Source of the DNA: Bacillota bacterium
Lineage (GTDB): Bacteria; Bacillota; UBA994
Assembly (NCBI GenBank): GCA_009773495.1
Contig: WSXW01000002.1
Location: 62,001 to 126,000 of the forward strand
Direction of reading: 5' to 3'
DNA length: 64,000 nt
In this document: one piece after another, positions 42,048 through 62,214 of the stretch
How positions within the stretch are numbered: position 1 is the first letter of the stretch
How the letters are laid out: every line of letters starts with the position of its first letter
The notes under the pieces: model-generated
Told to the model about the DNA's origin: nothing
What the model saw: the letters and a program-made list of their open reading frames with translations, nothing else
The model's database searches: none
Translations under genes and position numbers: made by a program

Positions 42048-43943
42048 GTGCGCCCGGCATGGGTGTTATCTATAGGGTGGAAGTCCCGAACGGTGAAGGT
42101 AGCAGTAACCGTAGCTTAAGGCAAGGGCTGGTCGCAGACAAAGTCTGCTGCTCGCCCATGCGCCTGGGTGTCCGTGGCGACGCGGAATCTGAAGGAAGGC
42201 TTTCCTCTGGTCCGAGGAACACGAACCTCAAGTGAGGCTAGTGACAGATGGATGAGTCTGCAGTGTAAGACAAAGTCCTTGCTGCCAAAGTCTGTCGAGA
42301 GTAAATGAGGCGGGTAGATGGAGGGAAAGGTAACACTCTTACCCGGGGAGGCCTGCCAGCGTACCGACTAATTTGGGAACTCGCACAGCGATGTGCGATT
42401 GAACTGGCAGGAGTCAGCAGAGGCCATAGTACCCGCTTTACGGGGAAGGGCCGAACATGAAACGAGGTGAGCAAATGACAAGTTCGCGGAAAGAGCAAGG
42501 ACAGCAGAAAACCCTTAACAGGTGCTCCTCGCAGGAGGAAGTGGTGAATACACAGGGGACTGTGAGAGCGCAGAGCTCTTACCCGGCACAAGTCAGGAGC
42601 TATACCTGCGGGACCGAGTATACCCTGCTGGAAGAGATGCTGAAGCTAGATAACATGATGGTAGCTCTCAAGCGCGTAGAGCAGAACAAAGGTGCAGCTG
42701 GAGTAGATAAGGTAGACGTAAAATCCTTACGCCCCTACCTCAAAGAACACTGGTTTCGCATCCGAGAAGAGTTGCTAGAGGGAACCTACAAGCCCCAGCC
42801 AGTCCGTCGAGTCGAAATCCCGAAATCCGACGGTGGCATAAGGCTCTTAGGTATTCCCACTCTAGTCGATCGTCTAATTCAGCAGGGCCTCGCACAAGTC
42901 CTAACACCAATCTTTGAACCCAGCTTCTCAAACAGTAGCTACGGCTTCAGGCCGAACCGTAGCACCCACCAGGCAGTCAAGCAAGCCAAGCAGTACATTG
43001 AGGAAGGTTACAGGTACGTCGTGGACCTAGATCTGGAGAAGTTCTTCGACCGAGTCAACCACGACATCCTAATGGCCCGAGTCGCCCGCAAGGTCCAAGA
43101 CAAGCGGACACTTGGACTCATCAGAGCCTACCTCAATGCTGGAGTCATGGCCAATGGAGTGTGCGTAAGAAGCGAACAAGGAGTTCCGCAGGGCGCCCCT
43201 CTGAGTCCAATTCTATCGAACATAATCCTTGATGACTTAGATAAGGAACTAGAGAGAAGAGGACACCTCTTTGTCCGTTACGCCGACGACTGCAATATCT
43301 ACGTCAAGACGGCACGGGCAGGGCAAAGAGTCATGGAGGGTGTAAAGAGATTTGTAGAGGACGTACTAAAACTCAAGGTCAATGAGCAGAAAAGTGCTGT
43401 TGACCGCCCCTGGAAACGAAAGTTCCTAGGGTTCTCGTTCACACCTGAGCGTAAAACACGTACACGAATAGCACCCAAAGCTCGTGCTAAGTTCGAGGAT
43501 AAGGTGAGGGAACTCACTAGACGTTCGCGGAGCATGAGTATGGAGAAACGAGTTGACCAGCTAAACGTGTACCTACGAGGGTGGATGGGGTACAGACACC
43601 CGAAGCGTTATTGGATCGCTAGACCAGTGGACTCGCCGACGCCTCCGCATGTGCTATTTAAAGCAGTGGAAGAAACCCCAAACAGTCTACCGCAATCTCG
43701 TCAAGCTCGGCTTAAGCCCAGACTTCGCCCGACAGCTCAGTGGCTCGGGAAAAGGATATTGGCGTTTAGCCAACACGCCTCAGGTGAACAAAGCCCTCGG
43801 TCTAGCCTTTTGGGCCAACCAAGGGCTCTTGAGTTTGGTTCAGTTATACGACAAGCACCGTAGTGTTTCGTGAACCGCCGTATACCGAACGGTACGTACG
43901 GTGGTGTGAGAGGACGGGGGTTAGTCACCCCCTCCTACTCGAT
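42048..43943 (+). mobile_element. Group II intron, class IIC
   Basis: 5' GTGCGCCCGGCATGGGTG..AGGGTGGAAGTCCCGAAC; 3' domain V/VI GAACCGCCGTATACCGAACGGTACGTACGGTGGTGTGAGAGGACGGGGGTTAGTCACCCCCTCCTACTCGAT; closely resembles the known Oceanobacillus iheyensis IIC intron; IEP in domain IV. Confidence 0.93.
42457..43871 (+). pseudogene. ltrA: Group II intron reverse transcriptase/maturase, apparently frameshifted near 43590
   Basis: RT motifs GIPTLVDRLIQQGLAQVL, YADDCNIYV; after LRGWMGY (frame 1) the conserved C-terminus DTRSVIGSLDQWTRRRLRMCYLKQWKKPQTVYRNLVKLG..GKGYWRLANTPQVNKALG..YDKHRSVS* continues in another frame. Confidence 0.85.
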
Positions 43944-43967
43944 TTACGTAAAAAGGAGTGTATTAAT

Positions 43968-46607
43968 ATGTCCGCGCAAATTCCTAAGAATTATGACCCC
44001 GCTATAGTGGAGAGTAAATGGTACAAGGTGTGGACTGATGAAGGGTATTTTATCCCAGGTCCAGAGTCCAAAGGGAAGCCCTTCACGATTGTGATTCCGC
44101 CGCCTAACGTAACTGACCGTCTGCATGTCGGCCACGCCCTAAATAATGGGCTGCAAGATGCTATTATACGTATGAAAAGAATGCAGGGCTTTGATACGCT
44201 GTGGGTACCGGGCACAGATCATGCTGGCATAGCCACTCAAAATGTAGTAGAAAGAAAGCTAGCGCGCGAGGGTAAGACTAGGCACGACTTGGGTCGCGAC
44301 GCTTTCGTGACTGAGGTTTGGAAATGGAAAGAGCAGTACGGCGCCGAAATCATCAATCAGCTCAAAACTATCGGCGCATCCTGTGACTTTACCCGTGAAC
44401 GGTTCACTATGGATGAGGGCTGTTCTAAAGCTGTACGGGAGACCTTTGTTCGACTGTACGAGAAGGGGCTAATTTATCGCGGCAGCTATATAGTAAATTG
44501 GTGTCCGCATTGCCGCACTGCTATCTCGGACGACGAGGTAGAGCACGAGGAAAAGCAAGGTAAATTATGGCATGTACGGTATCTACTAGCGAATAATGGT
44601 GGCTATATCACAATTGCCACCACCCGCCCAGAGACAATTCTCGGCGATACTGCAGTTGCCGTTAACCCAGAGGATGAACGCTACGCGCACCTCATTGGCA
44701 AGGAAGTTGTAGTTCCAGCTATCGAAAGACGTATTCCCATCGTTGCAGACGCTTATGTCGATAAAGCATTCGGCTCTGGTGCGGTAAAAGTAACCCCAGC
44801 CCACGACCCCAATGATTTCGCTATTGGTGAGCGTCACAACCTACCACAAATCAACGTAATGAACCAAGATGGGACCATGAATGAGTACGCCGGACCATTT
44901 GCAGGGCTAGACCGCTACGAATGCCGTCAGAAAGTCGTGGCTTATCTAGAGGAACAAGGCTTAGTGGACAAAATAGTTGACCATGGTATGAGCGTAGGTC
45001 AGTGCTACCGGTGTGATACTATAATTGAGCCGATTGTTTCCAAGCAATGGTTTGTTCGCATGCGTCCATTAGCGGAGCCTGCTATCCAGGCAGTAAAGGA
45101 CGGTACAGTTAAATTTGTGCCGGAACGTTTCGCTAAGACTTACTTACATTGGGTAGAGAACGTTAAGGATTGGTGCATTTCACGGCAAATTTGGTGGGGT
45201 CACACACTGCCTGTGTGGTATTGCCAGTGTGGCGAAGTATTAGTGGCGACAGAGACACCCACTACCTGCGCCAAGTGCGGTTCCCATGACCTTACTCAGG
45301 AAACAGATGTGCTCGATACTTGGTTTAGCTCCGCGTTGTGGCCCTTTGAAACCTTGGGCTGGCCCGAGGACACAACGGACCTCAAGCGTTTCTTCCCTAC
45401 CAGTGTTTTGGTCACAGCCTACGAGATCATCTATTTCTGGGTGGCTCGCATGGTGTTTATGTCGCTAGAGTTGACCGGTAAGCCGCCATTTAGTCAGGTT
45501 CTGATTCATGGCCTGGTACGGGATGGACAAGGTCGAAAAATGAGCAAGTCTCTTGGCAATGGTATTGACCCACTAGAAGTAGTAAGGCAATATGGGGCCG
45601 ACACCTTGCGATTTGCTTTGCTTAGCGGTAATACTCCGGGTAATGATATGAGGTTTTATACGGAGCGTCTTGAGCCAATTCGCAACTTCTGCAACAAAAT
45701 ATGGAACGCTTCCCGCTTCGTGCTTATGAACATGGAGGGAATAGAATTTGAGACAGGATCTCTGCCGTCAGCCGAGGAATTGACATTAGCCGACAAGTAT
45801 ATCTTGTCGCGCCTTGCTGATACAACTTCTCAGGTTACCAAGTTTGCTGAGAGGTTTGAATTTGGCGAAGTCACAAGGTTGCTTTACGATTTCTTGTGGA
45901 GCGAATTTTGTGATTGGTACATTGAGATGACTAAAGCAGAACTGTGGGCCGGCGGAGAGCGGAAACTAAGCACGCTTAAAGTGCTGTGCTTCACACTTTC
46001 ACGTACCTTAGAGCTCCTGCACCCCTTTATGCCGTTTATCACGGAAGAAATTTGGCAGGTTTTGCCTCGCATGGGCAAAACCATAACTATGACTGCATGG
46101 CCGACAGAAATACCCTTCGCTGATGAAAAAGCGGCGAAGAGTATGGGGTTAGTAATGGACGCTATTCGCGCTATTCGTAACATCAGAGCAGAAATGGGAG
46201 TTATACCATCCAAGCGCGCCGACATTGTAATAGTACCAACTGACAGTGACTACGAGGCTGTCTACGCGGCAGGCGCACACTACGTTAAACTTTTGGCCTC
46301 TGGCAAGGAGGTAAGTGTAGCATCCCGAAGTCCGTTTGCTAAGGGCGAGGCAGTTGCTATAGTCGTCACAGGGGCTGAGGTGTATTTGCCTTTAAGCGAG
46401 TTGGTAGATGTAGCCGCAGAAATCTCACGCCTAGAAAAGGAACATGCGACGCTAGTGGCTGAGGTAAGCCGTGCATCCACGAAGCTTCAGAATGAGGGTT
46501 TCTTAGCCAAGGCCAGAGCTCCCTTGATTGAGCAGGAACAGGCTAAGCTTGCTGAATACGAGGCTAAGCTCGCACAAGTGGAAAGGAGGTTGTCCGAACT
46601 TAAATGA
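43968..46607 (+). CDS. valS: Valyl-tRNA synthetase
   Basis: IPKNYDPAIVESKWYKVW; IVIPPPNVTDRLHVGHALNNGLQDAIIR; GRKMSKSLGNGIDPLEV; ATG 43968 after AAAAAGGAGTG. Confidence 0.97.
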   Translation: MSAQIPKNYDPAIVESKWYKVWTDEGYFIPGPESKGKPFTIVIPPPNVTDRLHVGHALNNGLQDAIIRMKRMQGFDTLWVPGTDHAGIATQNVVERKLAREGKTRHDLGRDAFVTEVWKWKEQYGAEIINQLKTIGASCDFTRERFTMDEGCSKAVRETFVRLYEKGLIYRGSYIVNWCPHCRTAISDDEVEHEEKQGKLWHVRYLLANNGGYITIATTRPETILGDTAVAVNPEDERYAHLIGKEVVVPAIERRIPIVADAYVDKAFGSGAVKVTPAHDPNDFAIGERHNLPQINVMNQDGTMNEYAGPFAGLDRYECRQKVVAYLEEQGLVDKIVDHGMSVGQCYRCDTIIEPIVSKQWFVRMRPLAEPAIQAVKDGTVKFVPERFAKTYLHWVENVKDWCISRQIWWGHTLPVWYCQCGEVLVATETPTTCAKCGSHDLTQETDVLDTWFSSALWPFETLGWPEDTTDLKRFFPTSVLVTAYEIIYFWVARMVFMSLELTGKPPFSQVLIHGLVRDGQGRKMSKSLGNGIDPLEVVRQYGADTLRFALLSGNTPGNDMRFYTERLEPIRNFCNKIWNASRFVLMNMEGIEFETGSLPSAEELTLADKYILSRLADTTSQVTKFAERFEFGEVTRLLYDFLWSEFCDWYIEMTKAELWAGGERKLSTLKVLCFTLSRTLELLHPFMPFITEEIWQVLPRMGKTITMTAWPTEIPFADEKAAKSMGLVMDAIRAIRNIRAEMGVIPSKRADIVIVPTDSDYEAVYAAGAHYVKLLASGKEVSVASRSPFAKGEAVAIVVTGAEVYLPLSELVDVAAEISRLEKEHATLVAEVSRASTKLQNEGFLAKARAPLIEQEQAKLAEYEAKLAQVERRLSELK

Positions 46608-47866
46608 AGTATTCTCAGGTAGTTGACTACATCCATGGATTAGGGCGTTTTGGTAGCAGACCGGGCCTTTCGCGCATTTCTGCAGCCTTAGCACACTTAG
46701 GCAACCCACATGAGGGGTTAAACGTTGTTCATGTAGCAGGTACTAACGGCAAAGGCTCAACCTGTAGCATGATGGCCAGCATCTTTCGGGCAGCAGGTTT
46801 GCATACTGGCCTCTATACCTCGCCCTATCTCGATTCCTTTACCAATCGCTTTGGGTTAGACGGGCAGGATATTACCCCAGATGAACTTGTCGCAGTGGTG
46901 GAAGATATTAGGCCTGTGGCCGAAAGAGAGGGTCTTACACAGTTTGAGTTTATCACCGCGTTAGCGTTCTATTACTATAAATCTCGGCAAATAGACATGT
47001 TGGTCCTCGAAGTCGGGCTTGGAGGTAGACTCGATGCCACCAACGTAGTCACGCCCCTAGTCAGCGCAATCACTAACATTGGATTTGATCATATGGAGAT
47101 CTTGGGTAATACATTAGGCAAGATTGCCTATGAGAAAGCCGGTATTATTAAGCCTGGTGTCCCGGTAGTTACATCAGTAGACGCCCTTGAGGCCTTGCAT
47201 GTTATTGCAGGTATTGCTCAAGCTAAGTCAGCACCACTTAGGGTATGGGGGAAGGATTTTTACAGTAGGCCTATCTCGGGGGATTTAAATAGTCAAACCT
47301 TTGATTACTCTGGTTGGGTAAACTTGGGAAGTCTCGAGTTGAAACTGTTAGGACCTCATCAGGTAGTCAATGCCGGGCTTGCTGTAGACGTTGCTCTAGG
47401 ATTACAGCTATCGATTACTGCGGGGCAGATACGACAGGGGTTAAGGGAGGCCCTCTGGCCTGGGCGTTTTGAGATCATGCGCACTTGCCCATGGGTAATT
47501 ATGGATGGTGCTCATAACAGCCATGGCGCTCTTGCACTAAGTCGTACTCTTGATGCGCTCCTGCCGAATCGTAAGATACGGCTTGTAACAGGAATTCTAA
47601 GTGACAAAGAACCTGCGGAGTTGCTAAGATTGTTAAAGCCCCATGTTTTACAAGTCTACGCCTGTGCTCCAAGTATACCTCGCGCTACGAATGCAACAGA
47701 ACTTGCGAGTATAGCAAGTGAGTTAGGTCTAGCAGCCGCACCGTATGAAAGCGTGGCTATTGCACTCCAAACGGCAGTACGTGACGCGTCCCCCGAGGAT
47801 GTCGTTTTGGTAGCGGGTTCGCTCTATACTGTTTCCGAAGCAAGAGTAGGGTTGGCGGCTCTTTGA
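46604..47866 (+). CDS. folC: Folylpolyglutamate synthase / dihydrofolate synthase
   Basis: VHVAGTNGKGSTCSMMASI; GLYTSPYLDSFTNRF; LEVGLGGRLDATNVV; MDGAHNSHGA. Confidence 0.95.
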   Translation: MKYSQVVDYIHGLGRFGSRPGLSRISAALAHLGNPHEGLNVVHVAGTNGKGSTCSMMASIFRAAGLHTGLYTSPYLDSFTNRFGLDGQDITPDELVAVVEDIRPVAEREGLTQFEFITALAFYYYKSRQIDMLVLEVGLGGRLDATNVVTPLVSAITNIGFDHMEILGNTLGKIAYEKAGIIKPGVPVVTSVDALEALHVIAGIAQAKSAPLRVWGKDFYSRPISGDLNSQTFDYSGWVNLGSLELKLLGPHQVVNAGLAVDVALGLQLSITAGQIRQGLREALWPGRFEIMRTCPWVIMDGAHNSHGALALSRTLDALLPNRKIRLVTGILSDKEPAELLRLLKPHVLQVYACAPSIPRATNATELASIASELGLAAAPYESVAIALQTAVRDASPEDVVLVAGSLYTVSEARVGLAAL

Positions 47867-48002
47867 GATGCCAACCCTTTCTCCTAGGCAGGAAAAACAG
47901 AGCTTCGTGTCGAAAAAACGATATAGTCTGAAATCTAAGTTTTTGGTATTGCTAACGATATAATAAGGTTGATTTTTACATGCTTTTGAATGGAGGAGCG
48001 GC

Positions 48003-48449
48003 GTGGTAGACAACGGAGTTTTAGATGTTGCATATCCGGTAGTCGGAGGCGATTTCGGTCAAGCAGGGGAGGGCGCGTCTAAACTCAAGCGTGTCCTCCA
48101 GCAAATCGGGCTTGCGCCAAGCATGGTAAGGCGCATTGCGGTAGCCTCCTATGAGGCCGAGCTAAATATTGTAATTCACGCTTTTAGTGGGATGCTCAAG
48201 GCGAAAATAACGGCGAGCAAAGTAGAAGTCTGGGCAGAAGATCAAGGTCCGGGTATTCCCAATGTGGAGTTGGCTATGACTGAAGGTTATTCTACTGCAC
48301 CCGATCACATTCGAGCTCTCGGCTTTGGTGCGGGTTTGGGCTTACCTAATATTCGCCGCAATGCAGACGCCATGGAGATAACAACAGCTTTGGGCACAGG
48401 TACTACAGTATATATGGCGTTCAGCAATGTAGTGAGGAAAGAGCAGTGA
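48003..48449 (+). CDS. RsbW-like ATP-binding protein (GHKL, anti-sigma regulatory type)
   Basis: VASYEAELNIVIHAFSG N-box; VWAEDQGPGIPN; ALGFGAGLGLPNIRRNADAM; GTG start. Confidence 0.85.
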   Translation: MVDNGVLDVAYPVVGGDFGQAGEGASKLKRVLQQIGLAPSMVRRIAVASYEAELNIVIHAFSGMLKAKITASKVEVWAEDQGPGIPNVELAMTEGYSTAPDHIRALGFGAGLGLPNIRRNADAMEITTALGTGTTVYMAFSNVVRKEQ

Positions 48450-49756
48450 GTTCTTACTTTCATTCGGTACAACTTGATGAAAGCAAATGCCGAGGTTGCA
48501 CCAACTGCATAAAGCGTTGCCCTACCGAGGCTATCCGGGTTCGCAAAGGCAAAGCGCGCATTAACAACGCCCGTTGTGTTGACTGTGGGGAGTGCATAAA
48601 GGCGTGTCCTAATAGGGCTAAATCAGTGGTTACAGACCAACGTTCAGTGTTGAGCCAGTATAAGTATACCGTTTGCTTACCAGCTCCCTCCTTCTTTGGG
48701 CAGTTCCGCAGCGACCTTTCCTTGGGAAGAGTGATAGGCGCACTGAAACAGGCTGGTTTTACCCACGTGTTTGAAGTGAGTATCGCAGCTGACATAGTGG
48801 CTCAAGCCATTGCGAAGCACCTCGCTTTGAGTGATGGTCCATTCCCGCGTATATCAACTAGCTGCCCTGCTGTTGTTCGTTTGATTCAGGTGAGATTTCC
48901 AGATCTTATAGATCATCTTGTACCGATAGAGGCGCCGATGGAAGTTGCTGCGTATCTCGCTCGAGAAGAAGTCCGAGCAAAGACAGGTTGCCTTGATAAA
49001 GAGATAGGAGTGTTCTTTACTACCCCTTGCCCAGCGAAAGTAACTGCGGTTCACCAGCCAGTAGGGCAAGGCAAATCCTATCTCAATGGAGCTTTCTCTA
49101 TGGCAGAAATTTATACGGACGCCTTTCGCCTTTTGCCTAACGTTACTCAGGAAGAAACGGTGCGGGGTACCGCCCGGGGGCTCAATTGGGCCAGAACTGG
49201 TGGGGAGGGTGAGTCTATAACCGCTGATGACTATCTAGCCGTCGACGGCATGCATAACGTCATATCTGTATTAGAGGAGTTAGAACTAGGTCGTTTACGC
49301 AACCTCAAGTATATTGAGGGGCAGGCCTGTAACGGCGGCTGCGTAGGGGGAGCCTTGGTTGTGGAGAATCCATTCATAGCGCGAGTTCGTGTTGCCCGAC
49401 TAGCGCAGCGGCTCAGTAAAGGTCCTGTGGAGAATTTCGTCATTCCAGATGAAGTGTTAGCACTTAGGCAAACCCTCCAGGCACGGCCCTTTTTGCAGCT
49501 CGATTCAAATATAGAAATCGCACTGCAAAAGCTAGCCGACCTCGAACAGCTGCTTGGTAAATTGCCTATGCTTGATTGTGGAGCCTGTGGCGCACCGCAC
49601 TGTAGAGCTTTGGCAGAAGATATTGTTAGAGAGACAGCCAGTCTGTCAGATTGTGTTTTTTTACTGCGTTCCCGACTTAGTGCGCAGATGGTGTCTCAAG
49701 ATTTAGGCGGTCAGCGCGAGGAAGGTGATGACAATGAATCTAAAGCAAATTGTTGA
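48446..49756 (+). CDS. 4Fe-4S / [FeFe]-hydrogenase large-subunit-C-terminal-like protein (putative sensory hydrogenase)
   Basis: Two ferredoxin motifs CRGCTNCIKRCP, CVDCGECIKACP; TSCPAVVRL, TTPCPAKV, GQACNGGCVGG; C-terminal CGACGAPHC. Confidence 0.85.
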   Translation: MSSYFHSVQLDESKCRGCTNCIKRCPTEAIRVRKGKARINNARCVDCGECIKACPNRAKSVVTDQRSVLSQYKYTVCLPAPSFFGQFRSDLSLGRVIGALKQAGFTHVFEVSIAADIVAQAIAKHLALSDGPFPRISTSCPAVVRLIQVRFPDLIDHLVPIEAPMEVAAYLAREEVRAKTGCLDKEIGVFFTTPCPAKVTAVHQPVGQGKSYLNGAFSMAEIYTDAFRLLPNVTQEETVRGTARGLNWARTGGEGESITADDYLAVDGMHNVISVLEELELGRLRNLKYIEGQACNGGCVGGALVVENPFIARVRVARLAQRLSKGPVENFVIPDEVLALRQTLQARPFLQLDSNIEIALQKLADLEQLLGKLPMLDCGACGAPHCRALAEDIVRETASLSDCVFLLRSRLSAQMVSQDLGGQREEGDDNESKANC

Positions 49757-50084
49757 GAGTCTAGGTCTTAGAGTTCTTGTGGGTGGAGATTTGCTTGATC
49801 GGATGGTGTCTGGTGGCTATGTTTCAGACATGCTCAGCGATGTACTCGCCAATGGAACAGTTGATTGTCTTTGGATTACTAGGCAGTCGCACCAAAACGT
49901 GATTGCTGTAGCCTCCCTGTTAGGGCTGGCTGGAGTGATTCTTGTGAATTGTCCTGAGCCTGCTCCCGCTTTGGTTGAAAAGGCCAAGGAGGAAGGCGTG
50001 GCGCTCTTGATGTATGAAGGTACAACCTTTGAGTTGGTTGGCACAATGTATGAGGAGGGCCTCAGGGGGTGTAAGCGTGCCTAA
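49725..50084 (+). CDS. DRTGG-domain-like protein
   Basis: LGLRVLVGGDLLDRMVSGGYVSDMLSDVLANGTVDCLWITRQSHQNVIAVASLLGLAGVILV. Confidence 0.75.
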   Translation: MMTMNLKQIVESLGLRVLVGGDLLDRMVSGGYVSDMLSDVLANGTVDCLWITRQSHQNVIAVASLLGLAGVILVNCPEPAPALVEKAKEEGVALLMYEGTTFELVGTMYEEGLRGCKRA

Positions 50085-50784
50085 GGTCCGCTGTGACCTT
50101 CATATACACACCGCTTTATCACCGTGTGCCGCTCCAGAGATGACCCCGAAGAATATTGTCAATATGGCAACTCTAGCGGGTGCAAGTGTAATTGCTATTA
50201 CAGATCACAATTCTGTACGTAACGTTTGGGCAGTTACCGCGGCGGCAGGGAACAAGCTAGTGGTTATCCCTGGCATGGAGGTGTGGACACGAGAAGATGT
50301 GCACCTGTTATGCCTTTTCCCACACTTAATGGCGGCGGAGACTTTTGGTCGTAAAGTTTATGCGGCTTTGCCTAATCGCCGCGGCGATGCGGATTTGTTT
50401 GGGCAGCAATATCTTTTTGACAGCGAGAACAAAATCATCGGGTGGGAGGAGCGCCTGCTGCTTTCACCAGTAGAGCTAAGCATAGATGACGCCTGCAAAG
50501 AGGTGACGCTTTTAGGGGGGGTGGTAATACCAGCCCATGTAGATAGAACTTATAGTGTCGTTACGCAGTTAGGTTTTATACCTCCACACCTGCCCATAGG
50601 TTTAGTAGAAGTATCAAGGCGAGGCAAACAGCCAGAGAAGGTACGCGCATACCCGTACGTTACTAATTCTGACGCCCACAGCCTAGCAGCATTAGCCGGG
50701 AGCATACCATGGGAATTGGAAGTGGCTGTCTCTACAATAGAAGGCGTAATTGAAGCGTTAAGGCTTAAAATTAAGCAACGCTAA
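50077..50784 (+). CDS. PHP-domain metal-dependent phosphoesterase
   Basis: CDLHIHTALSPCA; AITDHNS; PGMEVWTREDVHLLCLF; IPAHVDR; VTNSDAHSL; GTG start. Confidence 0.88.
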   Translation: MPKVRCDLHIHTALSPCAAPEMTPKNIVNMATLAGASVIAITDHNSVRNVWAVTAAAGNKLVVIPGMEVWTREDVHLLCLFPHLMAAETFGRKVYAALPNRRGDADLFGQQYLFDSENKIIGWEERLLLSPVELSIDDACKEVTLLGGVVIPAHVDRTYSVVTQLGFIPPHLPIGLVEVSRRGKQPEKVRAYPYVTNSDAHSLAALAGSIPWELEVAVSTIEGVIEALRLKIKQR

Positions 50785-50820: not shown

Positions 50821-50838
50821 TAGTGAAATATTTCACCC
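50821..50838. promoter_or_regulatory. Candidate Rex operator
   Basis: TAGTGAAATATTTCACCC: perfect palindrome GTGAAATATTTCAC, matching core of the known Rex consensus TTGTGAANNNNTTCACAA; preceded by TATAAT. Confidence 0.65.
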
Positions 50839-50860: not shown

Positions 50861-51352
50861 ATGACTGATCAATGTAAATGTTGTTCATTTAAGGAAACCG
50901 ACCCGCGTTGGCTGGAGCTAGAACGTATTTTAGAGCCGTGCCGGGGGGACACAGGTGCCTTAATCCAGGCTCTACACAAGGCTCAAGACCTTTTCGGGTT
51001 TGTATCACCCGAAGTACAGGAGAAGGTAGCAGAAGTGCTCAATGTTCCGCTAAGCGAGGTATATGGCGTGGCTACTTTCTATTCTCTGTTTTCTCTTAAG
51101 CCTCGCGGTGAGAATAAAATCGGTGTATGTTTAGGTACTGCGTGTTACGTGCGCGGCGCAGCGCAAGTGCTAGCTGAGCTAGAGAAACAATTAAACATCA
51201 AGCTTAACGATACAACGCAAGACGGCAAGTTTACTTTAGAAATAACCCGCTGTATTGGCGCTTGTGGCCTTGCGCCCGTTATAACTATTAACGAAGATGT
51301 ATATGGTCGTCTGCAACCCGACAAAATCAAGGAAATACTGGATAAGTATTAA
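50861..51352 (+). CDS. NuoE-like [2Fe-2S] subunit of bifurcating hydrogenase (HydC/HndA-like)
   Basis: LPGVSEVYGVATFYSLF-type motif (LSEVYGVATFYSLFSLKPRG); VCLGTACYVRGA; RCIGACGLAPV. Confidence 0.93.
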   Translation: MTDQCKCCSFKETDPRWLELERILEPCRGDTGALIQALHKAQDLFGFVSPEVQEKVAEVLNVPLSEVYGVATFYSLFSLKPRGENKIGVCLGTACYVRGAAQVLAELEKQLNIKLNDTTQDGKFTLEITRCIGACGLAPVITINEDVYGRLQPDKIKEILDKY

Positions 51353-51897
51353 TGGAAGAACTAGCCTTACACATCTTAGACCTAGTACAGAACTGCGCCG
51401 AGGCCGGAGCATCCATGGTGGAGATTACCATCATTGAAGACTTTAGCTCTAATCTCTTATTGATTGAGATTAGAGATAACGGTAGGGGCATGAGCCCAGA
51501 AGTCTTGGCTAATGTTGAAGACCCCTTCTTCACAACGCGCACAACTCGCCATGTGGGATTAGGCATTCCTTTGCTCAAGGCAGCAGCAGAACAGGCCGGG
51601 GGTAGCTTCGTAATTACCTCATCGCCTGGTAAAGGCACAACAGTAAGAGCTGAATTTGAGCATGATAATATCGACCGCGCGCCTCTTGGGAGCGTGTGTG
51701 ATACCGTTGTTGCGCTCCTCGCTGTACATCCCCGCTTAGATCTCGTGTATACCCACAGTGTAAACGGCACGGAGTTCGTGTTAGACGGTAGAGAAATTAG
51801 GGAGATCTGTGGGGAGGACCTAAACCACCCTAAGATTATTCAGTGGCTTAAAAGCTACATCGCTGAACAGGAAAAACAGTTAGGAGGAGACCAATGA
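51352..51897 (+). CDS. GHKL ATPase-domain protein (histidine-kinase-like, no H-box)
   Basis: HILDLVQNCAEAGASMVEITI; IEIRDNGRGMSPE; RHVGLGIPLLKAAAEQAGGSF; SSPGKGTTV. Confidence 0.88.
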   Translation: MEELALHILDLVQNCAEAGASMVEITIIEDFSSNLLLIEIRDNGRGMSPEVLANVEDPFFTTRTTRHVGLGIPLLKAAAEQAGGSFVITSSPGKGTTVRAEFEHDNIDRAPLGSVCDTVVALLAVHPRLDLVYTHSVNGTEFVLDGREIREICGEDLNHPKIIQWLKSYIAEQEKQLGGDQ

Positions 51898-52250
51898 AAA
51901 CTGTAGAAGACCTGCGCAAATTGCGTGAAGAAGTCCAACAGATGACCAAACTCCGGGACGGAGGAGCAGAGGTGAAAATTGTTGTAGGCATGGGCACGTG
52001 TGGCATTGCCGCCGGGGCTAGAGAAACATTAAACGCTTTCGTTCAGGAGATTGCCGTAAAATCTTTGTCAGGTGTTGTAGTAACACAAGCAGGGTGCGTC
52101 GGCCTGTGTGACAGGGAGCCTATTGTAGAAGTGAATGCAAAAGACGGCAGAACCATCTATGCCCGTGTTACACCCGAGAAAGCACGGCGTATTATCTCAG
52201 AGCATGTTCAAGGTGGCCGAGTCATTGAAGACTGGGTTACCCGTAACTAG
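51894..52250 (+). CDS. Thioredoxin-like [2Fe-2S] ferredoxin (HndB-like)
   Basis: VGMGTCGIAAGARE...VTQAGCVGLCDREP. Confidence 0.88.
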   Translation: MKTVEDLRKLREEVQQMTKLRDGGAEVKIVVGMGTCGIAAGARETLNAFVQEIAVKSLSGVVVTQAGCVGLCDREPIVEVNAKDGRTIYARVTPEKARRIISEHVQGGRVIEDWVTRN

Positions 52251-52255
52251 GAGGG

Positions 52256-54055
52256 GTGACCGTGAATCTATATAGAGCGCATGTATTGGTATGTGCGGGT
52301 GCTGGTTGTGTATCTTCGGGCTGCCAAGACACCCAGAATGCACTGATAGACGAGATAGCAAAGCAGGGACTAGATAGAGAAATAAAAGTCATCGAGACAG
52401 GTTGTATCGGTACCTGTGACCTAGGACCGGTAATTGTGGTTTACCCTGAGGGGGTCTTTTATCGTAAGGTCGGAGCCGATGGTGCTAGAGAAATAGTAAA
52501 AGAGCATCTGTTAAAGGGGCGCGTTGTAAATAGTCTGCTTTATCGCAACCCCTTAACCAGTCAATTAGTTCAGACATACGGAGAGATGGAATTCTTTAAT
52601 CGTCAATTGCGTGTCGCGCTACGCAACACGGGTATAATAAACCCGGACGTCATTGAGGAGTACATTGCACGCGATGGGTACGAAGCACTAGCTAGGGTTC
52701 TGACGACTATGAGCCGTGAAGATGTTATCTCGACCCTTAAACAGTCTGGGTTAAGAGGACGAGGTGGCGCAGGCTTCCCTACAGGCTTGAAGTGGCAGTT
52801 TGCTTACAATGAGGCCGGACCAGTCAAGTACGTGGTCTGTAATGCCGACGAGGGCGACCCCGGAGCATTTATGGACCGCAGCATCCTTGAGGGCGACCCT
52901 CACACAGTAATTGAGGCCATGGCCATTGCTGGCTACGCCATTGGGTCTGAACAAGGTTATGTGTATGTCAGGGCCGAATACCCGCTTGCTGTGAGACGTT
53001 TGCAGCACGCCATTAATCAAGCTCGTTCATATGGATTGTTAGGTCAAGGTATATTCGGCACATCGTTTACTTTTGACTTAGATATCAGAGTTGGTGCGGG
53101 CGCATTTGTATGTGGTGAAGAGACTGCCCTTATCGCGTCCATTGAAGGGAAACGTGGTGAGCCTCGTACACGGCCCCCATTCCCAGCAGTTAAAGGTCTG
53201 TGGGGCAAGCCTACTATTGTTAACAACGTGGAGACGTTCGCTAACATCTGCCCAATTATTATTTACGGTCCGGAGTGGTACTCCCGTATCGGGACAGAAA
53301 AAAGCAAAGGCACAAAGGTCTTTGCTGTTGCCGGTAACATTAATAACACTGGTTTAGTAGAGGTGCCAATGGGGATGACCTTACGCCAGTTGATATTCGA
53401 TGTGTGCGGTGGCATTCCTGACGGCAAAGAGTTTAAGGCTGCGCAAACCGGTGGCCCTTCGGGCGGTTGCCTAACTAAGGAACACCTTGACGTTACAATG
53501 GAATACGACAGTCTAGTAGAATTAGGCAGTATGATGGGCTCAGGCGGGCTGATTGTCATGGATGAGAACACTTGCATGGTGGATATCGCCCGTTATTTTT
53601 TAGATTTCACTCAGGATGAGTCCTGTGGTAAATGCACTCCTTGTCGCGTTGGCACCAAGCGCATGTTAGAGATATTGGAACGTATTACAGCGGGTGAGGG
53701 ACAGGACAGTGATATTGATACCTTAATGGCTTTAGCGAACAACATTAGGACAACATCCTTGTGCGGGCTTGGTCAATCTGCACCTAACCCCGTCCTATCT
53801 ACTTTGAAGTACTTCCGTGCAGAATACGAGGCACATATTAAGGAGAAACGGTGTCCGGCAGGCGTATGTCAGTCGCTGTTAAGTTATAATATTGCTGGTG
53901 CCAAGTGTAGAGGTTGCGGCCTATGCGCACGTGTATGTCCTACATCAGCCATCATCGGCAAGCCCAAGGAAGTATACAAGATCGAACGCAACAAGTGCGT
54001 GAAGTGTGGCGCATGCGTCGAGAAGTGTCCCTTTGGCGCCGTGGCGCGAGCTTAA
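52256..54055 (+). CDS. NuoF-like NADH-binding hydrogenase subunit (HydB/HndC-like)
   Basis: VCAGAGCVSSG; GLRGRGGAGFPTGLKW; CNADEGDPGAFMDRSILEGDPH; ESCGKCTPCRVGT; C-terminal CRGCGLCARVCP and CVKCGACVEKCP. Confidence 0.95.
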   Translation: MTVNLYRAHVLVCAGAGCVSSGCQDTQNALIDEIAKQGLDREIKVIETGCIGTCDLGPVIVVYPEGVFYRKVGADGAREIVKEHLLKGRVVNSLLYRNPLTSQLVQTYGEMEFFNRQLRVALRNTGIINPDVIEEYIARDGYEALARVLTTMSREDVISTLKQSGLRGRGGAGFPTGLKWQFAYNEAGPVKYVVCNADEGDPGAFMDRSILEGDPHTVIEAMAIAGYAIGSEQGYVYVRAEYPLAVRRLQHAINQARSYGLLGQGIFGTSFTFDLDIRVGAGAFVCGEETALIASIEGKRGEPRTRPPFPAVKGLWGKPTIVNNVETFANICPIIIYGPEWYSRIGTEKSKGTKVFAVAGNINNTGLVEVPMGMTLRQLIFDVCGGIPDGKEFKAAQTGGPSGGCLTKEHLDVTMEYDSLVELGSMMGSGGLIVMDENTCMVDIARYFLDFTQDESCGKCTPCRVGTKRMLEILERITAGEGQDSDIDTLMALANNIRTTSLCGLGQSAPNPVLSTLKYFRAEYEAHIKEKRCPAGVCQSLLSYNIAGAKCRGCGLCARVCPTSAIIGKPKEVYKIERNKCVKCGACVEKCPFGAVARA

Positions 54056-54067
54056 CGGAGGTGTCAT

Positions 54068-55822
54068 ATGGGAGATAACATTAAACTAACGGTAGACGGC
54101 CAAGGGGTTGAAGTTACGAAGGGCACCACTGTACTACAAGCAGCTAAGGTTGCAGGCATTGAAATCCCTACTCTATGTTTTCTAGAAAAGATCAACGAAA
54201 TTGGTGCTTGCCGCGTATGTATGGTTCAGGTACAAGGTTGGCGCGGGTTGCAGGCTTCGTGTGTGCTGCCGGTCCAAGAGGGTATGGTAATACGTACAAA
54301 TACACCAGAGATCAGGCAGGCTAGGAGAGTCAATATCGAGCTGATTTTGTCAAACCATCCTAATAATTGTCTGACATGTGGTCGTAACACCACGTGCGAA
54401 CTGCAAAAGCTGGCCTCAGATCTTCACGTTAACGCCGACGCCTATAAAGGTGAAAAGTCCGAGTGGCCTCTTGACCTCAGTAACCCGTCTTTAATACGTG
54501 ACCCTAACAAATGTATTCTTTGCCGTAGGTGTGTAGCTGTCTGTCATCAAGTGCAGTCTGTGGGTGCATTGTCACCCGTTGAACGGGGTTTTGGCTCGGT
54601 AATAAGCCCTGACGCCAATAGACAGTTAGCTGAAGCTGCTTGTGCGTATTGTGGGCAGTGTGCAGCAGTTTGTCCGACAGGAGCGCTGGCGGAAGTAGAT
54701 AATACTGAGATTGTTTTTAAGGCTATCGGCGATAAAAAACACGTAGTGGTTCAAGTGGCACCCGCTGTGCGCGTTGCCATCGGTGAAGAGTTTGGCTTGG
54801 CGCGGGGCGCCATTTCCACAGGTCAAATGGTCACTGGGCTACGCATGCTAGGGTTCTCTGCCGTGTTTGACACTGACTTTGCAGCAGATCTAACTATTCT
54901 AGAAGAAGCCCATGAGTTAATTGAGCGTGTTAAGTGGGGCGGTAAACTCCCCCTCATCACTTCTTGTAGCCCAGGTTGGGTTAAGTTTGTGGAGCACTTT
55001 TATCCAGAGTTTCTACCTAATCTATCATCGTGTAAATCGCCGCAGCAGATGCTTGGCGCTCTTATCAAGAGTTACTATGCAACTGATGTAGTGAAGCTCC
55101 CGCTTGAACAGATATATTCTGTTTCAGTCATGCCTTGCACCGCTAAAAAGTACGAGGCGAGCCGTGCAGAGATGGGCCATGGTAACGTGCAGGACGTCGA
55201 CGCTGTCCTGACAACTCGAGAGTTAGCCCGTATGTTCAGGATCGCAGGGATAGATTTAGCTAGGCTGCCGGCGGGAGAGTTTGATATGCCGCTTGGCATG
55301 TCTACGGGCGCCGGTGTCATATTTGGCGCTAGTGGAGGTGTAATGGAGGCAGCCCTGCGCACCGCATTTGAGTGGATAGCTGGGGTTCCCTTAGAAAAGC
55401 TTGACCTAGTGGCAGTACGTGGTCTTGAAGGCGTTAAAGAAGCTCAAATAGCCATCCCTAATTTAGGGTTAGTCAAGGTAGCTGTTGCCAATGGGCTTGG
55501 CAATGCTCGCAGCCTCTTAGAACGAATTAAGGACAAAGAAGTCGAATACCACTTTGTAGAGATTATGGCGTGCCCGGGTGGTTGCTTAGGTGGCGGTGGC
55601 CAGCCTCGTTCTAGGTATGAGGACAATGTAAGCACCAAACAGGCCCGACTAGAGAGTATCTACAAAATCGACCGCGAACTACCGTTGCGCCGCAGTCATG
55701 AAAACCCAGCTGTAAAAAAACTATACGCAGAATACCTAGGTAGCATAGGTGGGGAGAAAGCACACCACCTTTTGCATACCACCTACGTTGCTAGGGGACG
55801 CTTTCCGTGGCGCAATAAGTAA
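54068..55822 (+). CDS. hydA: NADH-dependent [FeFe] hydrogenase catalytic subunit (group A, HydA/HndD-like)
   Basis: N-terminal 2Fe-2S; H-cluster motifs TSCSPGWVKF, MPCTAKKYE, MACPGGCLGGGGQP. Confidence 0.95.
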   Translation: MGDNIKLTVDGQGVEVTKGTTVLQAAKVAGIEIPTLCFLEKINEIGACRVCMVQVQGWRGLQASCVLPVQEGMVIRTNTPEIRQARRVNIELILSNHPNNCLTCGRNTTCELQKLASDLHVNADAYKGEKSEWPLDLSNPSLIRDPNKCILCRRCVAVCHQVQSVGALSPVERGFGSVISPDANRQLAEAACAYCGQCAAVCPTGALAEVDNTEIVFKAIGDKKHVVVQVAPAVRVAIGEEFGLARGAISTGQMVTGLRMLGFSAVFDTDFAADLTILEEAHELIERVKWGGKLPLITSCSPGWVKFVEHFYPEFLPNLSSCKSPQQMLGALIKSYYATDVVKLPLEQIYSVSVMPCTAKKYEASRAEMGHGNVQDVDAVLTTRELARMFRIAGIDLARLPAGEFDMPLGMSTGAGVIFGASGGVMEAALRTAFEWIAGVPLEKLDLVAVRGLEGVKEAQIAIPNLGLVKVAVANGLGNARSLLERIKDKEVEYHFVEIMACPGGCLGGGGQPRSRYEDNVSTKQARLESIYKIDRELPLRRSHENPAVKKLYAEYLGSIGGEKAHHLLHTTYVARGRFPWRNK

Positions 55823-61682: not shown

Positions 61683-61689
61683 GAAATTG

Positions 61690-62214
61690 ATGGGAAGACT
61701 TAAGATGCAGAAGATGGTCCGACTGTCTTTACTCGTCAGTGGAGCAGCTGTACTACACGTGGTAGAGAGCTGGCTACCAAATCCCTTTGTGTTTTTACTG
61801 GGTCCAGGAGCTAAGCTTGGTCTGGCTAATGTGGTAACGCTGGCAGTAGTGTTAGCCTATGGGTGGAGAGAGGCTTTTGTAGTGGCAGTGCTTCGCTCCT
61901 TTCTCGGCAGTCTCGTTGCAGGCACGTTTTTGACCTTTGGCTTTTACATGAGCTTAGCGGGTGCTATCACTAGCGCCTTAGCCATGGGGGTTTTACGTGC
62001 TCTGCAGGGGAACAAGCTCAGCGCCATCGGGCTGAGTATCGTTGGAGCCGTTACGCATATTGTGACTCAGCTCACAGTGGCGGCCTTGGCAGTGTCTCAT
62101 TTTGGCCTTTTCGTTCAGTTACCTTGGCTATTATTGTTTGCGATTCCCACAGGATGTTTCGTAGGAGTGGTCGGAGGGCTGTTATACAAGACCATGCCTA
62201 AAGAGACAGATTGA
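61690..62214 (+). CDS. Gx transporter family protein (heptaprenyl diphosphate synthase component I-like)
   Basis: LVSGAAVLHVVESWLPNPFVFLLGPGAKLGLANVVTLAVVLAYGWREAFVVAVLRSFLGSLVAGTF. Confidence 0.88.
   Translation: MGRLKMQKMVRLSLLVSGAAVLHVVESWLPNPFVFLLGPGAKLGLANVVTLAVVLAYGWREAFVVAVLRSFLGSLVAGTFLTFGFYMSLAGAITSALAMGVLRALQGNKLSAIGLSIVGAVTHIVTQLTVAALAVSHFGLFVQLPWLLLFAIPTGCFVGVVGGLLYKTMPKETD

Follow-up and report, generated by a model that had tools for sequence, protein, structure and literature searches.

What do four overlapping genes do together when they stand directly ahead of a catalytic hydrogenase operon? The genes occupy positions 48003-50784 of the window, by which we mean the whole 64,000-nt stretch that was analysed. 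A sequence-only reading had described them as a putative H2/redox-sensing module in which an Fe-S protein with H-cluster-like motifs gates an RsbW-like ATPase, together with a DRTGG protein and a PHP phosphoesterase. All four of its ORFs were found where it had placed them, and the overlaps are real: 4 nt between GHKL1 and HydS, about 20-30 nt between HydS and DRTGG2, and 8 nt between DRTGG2 and PHP. The operon that it expected downstream, hydC-GHKL2-2Fe2S-hydB-hydA, does follow at 50861-55822, after a gap of 76 nt, and its HydA matches NF040763, the NADH-dependent group A6 family. The four genes share one strand, and the order in the window is valS, folC, GHKL1, HydS, DRTGG2, PHP, hydC, GHKL2, 2Fe-2S, hydB, hydA and Rnf-type genes (Table 1 gives GHKL1 to hydA).

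Table 1. Features of the four-gene set and of the hydrogenase operon behind it, in window positions
Feature	Position	Strand	Basis
GHKL1: stand-alone SpoIIAB/RsbW-like GHKL ATPase	48003..48449	+	GTG start; Pfam HATPase_c_2 1.4e-8
HydS: group D (M2e) putative sensory [FeFe]-hydrogenase	48446..49756	+	Pfam, ligands, AlphaFold model, tree
DRTGG2: DRTGG-domain protein	49725..50084	+	Pfam DRTGG 4e-5; homologues support call
PHP-family metal phosphoesterase	50077..50784	+	GTG start 50077; Pfam PHP 4e-6
Rex-operator-like palindrome TAGTGAAATATTTCACCC, 14-bp perfect core	50821..50838	.	Between PHP and hydC
HydC/NuoE-like subunit, opens catalytic hydrogenase operon	50861..51352	+	Pfam 2Fe-2S_thioredx 1e-52
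GHKL2: second stand-alone HATPase	51352..51897	+	Pfam HATPase_c 8e-17
2Fe-2S ferredoxin-like protein, hyd operon	51894..52250	+	Pfam
HydB/NuoF-like subunit	52256..54055	+	Pfam Complex1_51K, NADH_4Fe-4S
HydA: catalytic group A [FeFe]-hydrogenase	54068..55822	+	NCBIfam NF040763 852 bits, above cut-off

Two starts needed attention. The true start of DRTGG2 is more likely the ATG at 49728 or 49734, and the ATG at 50014 given for PHP by the ORF tool was rejected as an over-extension in favour of the GTG listed. Linkage of folC to the gene set recurs in several families (window 43863-48449, L132, L134, L158 and L168; L numbers are loci, G numbers genomes), often with valS and sometimes with rex alongside.

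The product of the second gene, HydS, was characterized through its domains and ligands. Pfam matched Fe_hyd_lg_C (3.6e-28), two Fer4 domains and FeS (PF04060, 3e-12). Two N-terminal 4Fe-4S sites (C15/18/21/25 and C44/47/50/54) are followed by the H-domain and a C-terminal Cx2Cx4Cx16C site (C378/381/386/403), all with exact spacing. The TSCP, TPCPAK and ACNGGC motifs provide all four H-cluster cysteines (C140, C195, C295 and C299), each found in 108/108 relatives. Retention of these ligands in an alignment was one of the points on which the sequence-only reading hinged, and they are invariant; the AlphaFold model that it had proposed as a check reached a pLDDT of 88.6, with [FeFe]-hydrogenases as the nearest folds. 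The position of Cys299 in CpI is S139 in HydS (mostly A/S in relatives), the Met353 position is T193 (mostly T/S) and the Met497 position is Gln. E254, E291 and D267 are the equivalents of TamHydS E252, E289 and D265, residues of group D with a described proton-path role (PMC10407848). HydS matches the published marks of group D/M2e in these respects (PMC8163306, PMC10407848, PMC13104023).

HydS does not belong to group C, whose members carry a C-terminal PAS domain: Pfam matched no PAS in HydS, whereas the group C controls do show it. In a tree that included proteins of groups A and B and PAS-bearing ones of group C, with groups set by domain content and TamHydS itself absent, HydS fell inside a 26-row clade that is separate from all three groups and has 100/100 support. 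We conclude that the 48446 product is a full putative sensory [FeFe]-hydrogenase of group D (M2e, TamHydS-type). The earlier term "H-cluster-like" was right about the site, but its wording fell short, as the protein is a member of a described family. A sensory role proposed for group D and its location next to hydrogenases have been published (PMC8163306, PMC10407848, PMC13104023). The same genome encodes the HydE, HydF and HydG maturases and, therefore, the H-cluster can be built. Besides hydS it has another group D gene (C70, at L031:7345-13169 of G000), which lies with DRTGG2 and a HydABC set, without GHKL1, PHP or GHKL2. A PAS-bearing group C gene (L170) is present as well. Group C homologues in the same genomes have PAS, and one has PAS-HisKA-HATPase; at L039:13646-15991 such a fused group C sensory hydrogenase lies near a group D cassette whose HydS and DRTGG2 are fused.

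The description of the first gene as an RsbW-like ATPase was borne out by its HATPase match and its solved relatives. The best of these is the anti-sigma F factor SpoIIAB (3e-10), with which the N-box Glu/Asn and the G1/G2 boxes align, and RsbW is among the weaker structural matches. The YEAExN, DxGPGI and GFGAGxGLxN motifs are at least 95% conserved in 108 relatives. NCBIfam scores were 47.4 bits against a cut-off of 135 for SpoIIAB (1.7e-12) and 20.4 against 145 for RsbW, and GHKL1 forms a tight family of its own. It is probably a protein kinase. GHKL2 usually sits between hydC and the 2Fe-2S gene.

Of the other two genes, the call of a PHP phosphoesterase was upheld, and that of a DRTGG protein is supported through relatives. 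DRTGG2 of the window scores 23.8 bits, just under the Pfam gathering cut-off of 25.2 (PF07085), and its homologues support the call, with the relatives in L142 and L070 at 27.3 and 28.5 bits. An Asp and a Ser are near-invariant in the DRTGG2 family, the Ser within a D-x-x-S motif. The top PDB matches of the DRTGG profile, designed "Pizza" proteins, were rejected as artefacts because they sum many weak repeats; the real relatives are AF_1212 and a CBS-DRTGG pyrophosphatase. PHP scores 27.7 bits against a gathering cut-off of 26.4 (PF02811), and its metal-ligand His/Asp/Glu residues (HxH, DH, E, H, H, SDAH) are about 100% conserved in 95 relatives. Its relatives with solved structures are PHP phosphoesterases, nucleases and a 5'-3' exoribonuclease.

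Conservation of the neighbourhood was assessed in 80 named group D loci from a scan of one genome per species, in Bacillota, Atribacterota and Spirochaetota. Neighbours were searched with profiles built from the window family, and only loci with enough flank were scored. Because the loci were chosen for their likeness to the query and share ancestry, the counts are not independent. The usual order is DRTGG1-GHKL1-HydS-DRTGG2-PHP, and this cassette is seen in Clostridia, as the sequence-only reading had anticipated, and in Atribacterota as well. Upstream of HydS, GHKL1 was found close by in 71/74 loci and DRTGG1 in 69/74; downstream, DRTGG2 and PHP were each found in 62/72. This very strong co-occurrence is what the proposed neighbourhood analysis had sought. 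The window cassette is without DRTGG1, the gene that usually opens it and that this family has lost. The two Spirochaetaceae loci have GHKL1 and HydS, with the other cassette genes not seen. A CheW-like gene lies directly upstream of a reduced (DRTGG1)-GHKL1-HydS set at L115:7065-7532, L161:606-1082 and L159:5484-5936 (Pfam CheW 1e-37 for L115 and L161; sequence likeness for L159), hinting at a link to chemotaxis.

Of 120 genomes in the phylum, 40 have group D, and all 40 also have the DRTGG family; among the 80 without group D, 6 have it (hypergeometric 8e-26, which ignores relatedness). GHKL1 is present in the same 40/40 genomes. The DRTGG family has just two genes in the source genome, and each lies next to one of its group D genes. 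In the 44 loci flanked by about 8 kb on each side, HydB was scored near the cassette: 19 loci have it on the cassette's strand, 7 have it on the opposite one and 18 lack it. HydABC is thus missing within about 8 kb of 18 cassettes, from which it follows that the cassette is an independent unit.

Gene fusions and variants show how these parts are combined. Ten loci have a DRTGG1-GHKL1 fusion, and two (G046 and G123) a HydS-DRTGG2 fusion. An N-terminal CBS pair is found on GHKL1 in 11 loci, 7 without HydS and 4 with it, and some of the HydS-free loci are full DRTGG1-[CBS-GHKL1]-DRTGG2-PHP cassettes. A strict exchange of HydS for CBS was ruled out by the four CBS-GHKL1 loci that keep HydS and by genomes G023 and G049, where GHKL1 has neither; the replacement is thus a tendency and no rule. 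Nor is the pairing of GHKL1 with HydS absolute, given those two genomes and the three loci with HydS and no GHKL1 (L078, L087 and L112). Together, the fusions and the seven HydS-free CBS-GHKL1 loci suggest that GHKL1 is a hub fed by exchangeable sensors. This hub may also serve Rnf: DRTGG1-[CBS-GHKL1]-2Fe2S stands directly ahead of Rnf-type genes in G129 (L137:8160-9946) and G325 (L162:3628-5295). A single-sequence AlphaFold model of the DRTGG1-GHKL1 fusion had a pLDDT of 32, and no interface claim was drawn from it.

HydS is disrupted next to intact hyd genes in G050 and G015. At L134:8165-9971 the cassette is decaying, with HydS and PHP broken, GHKL1 missing and hydC to hydA intact. At L151:3100-4257 an opposite-strand transposase-like gene lies between DRTGG1 and CBS-GHKL1 in an otherwise complete cassette.

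A separate ribosome-binding site and a Rex-like palindrome are found in the 76-nt hydC leader, so the hyd operon may be transcribed apart from the four-gene set. The palindrome, TAGTGAAATATTTCACCC, is the sole match in the window at three or fewer mismatches to TTGTGAAATATTTCACAA, with 0.03 expected. At two or fewer mismatches to the consensus, 14/88 loci have a Rex-type site upstream of hydC (0.8 expected), and 10/120 have one upstream of the cassette (0.7 expected), the expected numbers coming from single-base shuffles. A rex gene is present in the source genome, and in several relatives rex is directly upstream of DRTGG1. The generic open-centre Rex pattern did no better than chance in the window, where the specific palindrome alone is set off from background. 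One sequence with a single mismatch to it, TTGTGACTCAGCTCACAG at 62060-62077, is probably a chance match because it is located in ORF 61687-62214. Scans for promoters and terminators gave site numbers no higher than in shuffles. Rex control of a hyd operon has been shown by gel shift in Caldicellulosiruptor bescii (PMC6391272).

We favour, as somewhat the more probable account, that the four genes represent a conserved cassette in slightly reduced form, one that senses the redox state of H2/ferredoxin and tunes the adjacent electron-bifurcating hydrogenase or wider redox metabolism. The cassette, strongly conserved in many anaerobes, probably forms a hydrogen/redox signalling unit. Of the module first proposed, sensing is supported, as the simplest reading of one conserved unit, and the classical partner switch is not. 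HydS, with its intact H-cluster site and altered proton path, would react with H2, and its redox or conformational state would be the signal. Published work on TamHydS describes low turnover, raised H2 affinity and an H2-induced structural change (PMC8163306); the redox state of its C-terminal cluster is unchanged under H2, which counts against this signal route (PMC13104023). HydS would then act in trans on GHKL1, as group C sensors presumably do on fused histidine kinases, a step proposed because of the co-conservation, the fusion patterns and the CBS-GHKL1 proteins of HydS-free loci. In what would be the weakest step, GHKL1 may bind or phosphorylate the DRTGG proteins, with the Ser of D-x-x-S as a candidate phosphosite or a structural residue; DRTGG as the switch partner of GHKL1 is our guess. 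PHP could reset the system by stripping phosphate from a protein or degrading a nucleotide ligand. The output would fall on HydABC activity or expression, with HydA the likely target, and Rex at its predicted operator upstream of hydC would exert a separate control at the level of NADH. Against this account, none of the constant neighbours of the cassette is a transcription factor, a sigma factor or a STAS protein.

Other explanations were weighed against this one. HydS could be a low-activity catalytic or electron-transfer hydrogenase that works with HydABC in H2 uptake or as a redox valve, with GHKL1, DRTGG and PHP as loosely linked housekeeping genes. Its H-cluster site is complete, TamHydS interconverts H+ and H2 (PMC8163306), and the paralogous cluster L031 retains just HydS-DRTGG2 with HydABC. 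We nevertheless regard this as unlikely, given the cassettes that lack HydABC, the near-constant GHKL1 beside HydS, the DRTGG family in every HydS genome and the cassettes kept by CBS-GHKL1 proteins where HydS is absent. The cassette could instead serve [FeFe]-hydrogenase assembly, repair or activity gating, acting post-translationally on HydABC or Rnf with no signal cascade; GHKL would be a chaperone or switch, DRTGG a nucleotide-responsive adaptor and PHP a processor of nucleotides. HydEFG are encoded separately and the cassette is missing from many genomes that have group A hydrogenases, which makes this rather improbable too, even with a second GHKL protein inside the hyd operon itself, DRTGG1-CBS-GHKL1 ahead of Rnf genes in two genomes and no constant DNA-binding output gene.

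Another possible explanation is a classical partner switch, with GHKL1 as an anti-sigma factor that is antagonised by an anti-anti-sigma factor to release a sigma factor. The closest solved relatives of GHKL1, which are SpoIIAB, and its NCBIfam similarity to SpoIIAB favour it. However, GHKL1 scores far below the cut-off within a tight family of its own, and neither the cassette nor the inspected flanks, whose genes are partly annotated, showed a recognisable STAS or sigma gene. The partner-switch output of the sequence-only reading found no partner in the neighbourhoods inspected, and we consider this explanation very unlikely.

A broader form of the sensing account is put forward only tentatively. 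At its centre would be a stand-alone GHKL kinase whose switch partners are the DRTGG proteins and whose reset is PHP. This hub would take interchangeable sensors, with H2 read by a group D [FeFe]-hydrogenase and adenine nucleotides/NAD by a CBS pair, and control bifurcating hydrogenases and Rnf, which would be an undescribed kind of signalling in anaerobic redox metabolism. The open-access texts searched yielded no account of the five-gene cassette, of its independence from HydABC, of the fusions or of the CBS variant. How a group D protein without a PAS or kinase domain relays its signal is a question posed by its discoverers (PMC8163306). The conserved neighbours name concrete candidate partners (GHKL1, DRTGG1/2 and PHP), and specific pairs emerge from the fusions. 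What is fermented to which products, and how much hydrogen is made, depend on H2 sensing, a matter of industrial interest; ethanol yield rose after hfsB deletion in several thermophiles (PMC5707799).

The closest known system is TamHydS of Thermoanaerobacter mathranii, which shares with HydS the domain order, the Cx2Cx4Cx16C site, the lack of PAS, the loss of Cys299, a Thr/Ser at the Met353 position and the conserved E252/E289/D265 equivalents. It too lies upstream of a bifurcating group A hydrogenase with a histidine-kinase-like ATPase at its flank, which Land et al. (2020) noted when they proposed its sensory role (PMC8163306). Its reported flanks are that ATPase and an "AraC family regulator", whereas in the window a DRTGG protein without any match to AraC lies downstream; our guess is that the "AraC" gene is a misnamed DRTGG gene. 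As far as the TamHydS papers are searchable, no mention of DRTGG1, DRTGG2, PHP or the CBS variant was found in them. Group C sensors (TmHydS, R. albus HydS and Thermoanaerobacterium HfsB) resemble HydS in their H-domain with an altered proton path, their C-terminal Fe-S site and an operon often shared with a catalytic hydrogenase. They differ in their PAS domain, a sometimes fused histidine kinase and a separate clade, whereas the kinase-like protein here is separate. For HfsB there is genetic evidence of regulation, as hfsB deletion led to higher adhE expression and ethanol yield (PMC5707799). SpoIIAB and RsbW share with GHKL1 the sequence family, the N-box and G boxes and the form of a small stand-alone ATPase; GHKL1 differs in scoring far below the cut-offs of both and in having no recognised STAS or sigma partner in the inspected flanks. 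In the C. bescii hyd operon, as in the window, a Rex-type palindrome is directly upstream of the hyd structural genes (PMC6391272). Rex senses NADH/NAD+, whereas the reading of HydS concerns H2, and Rex would thus be a second layer of control.
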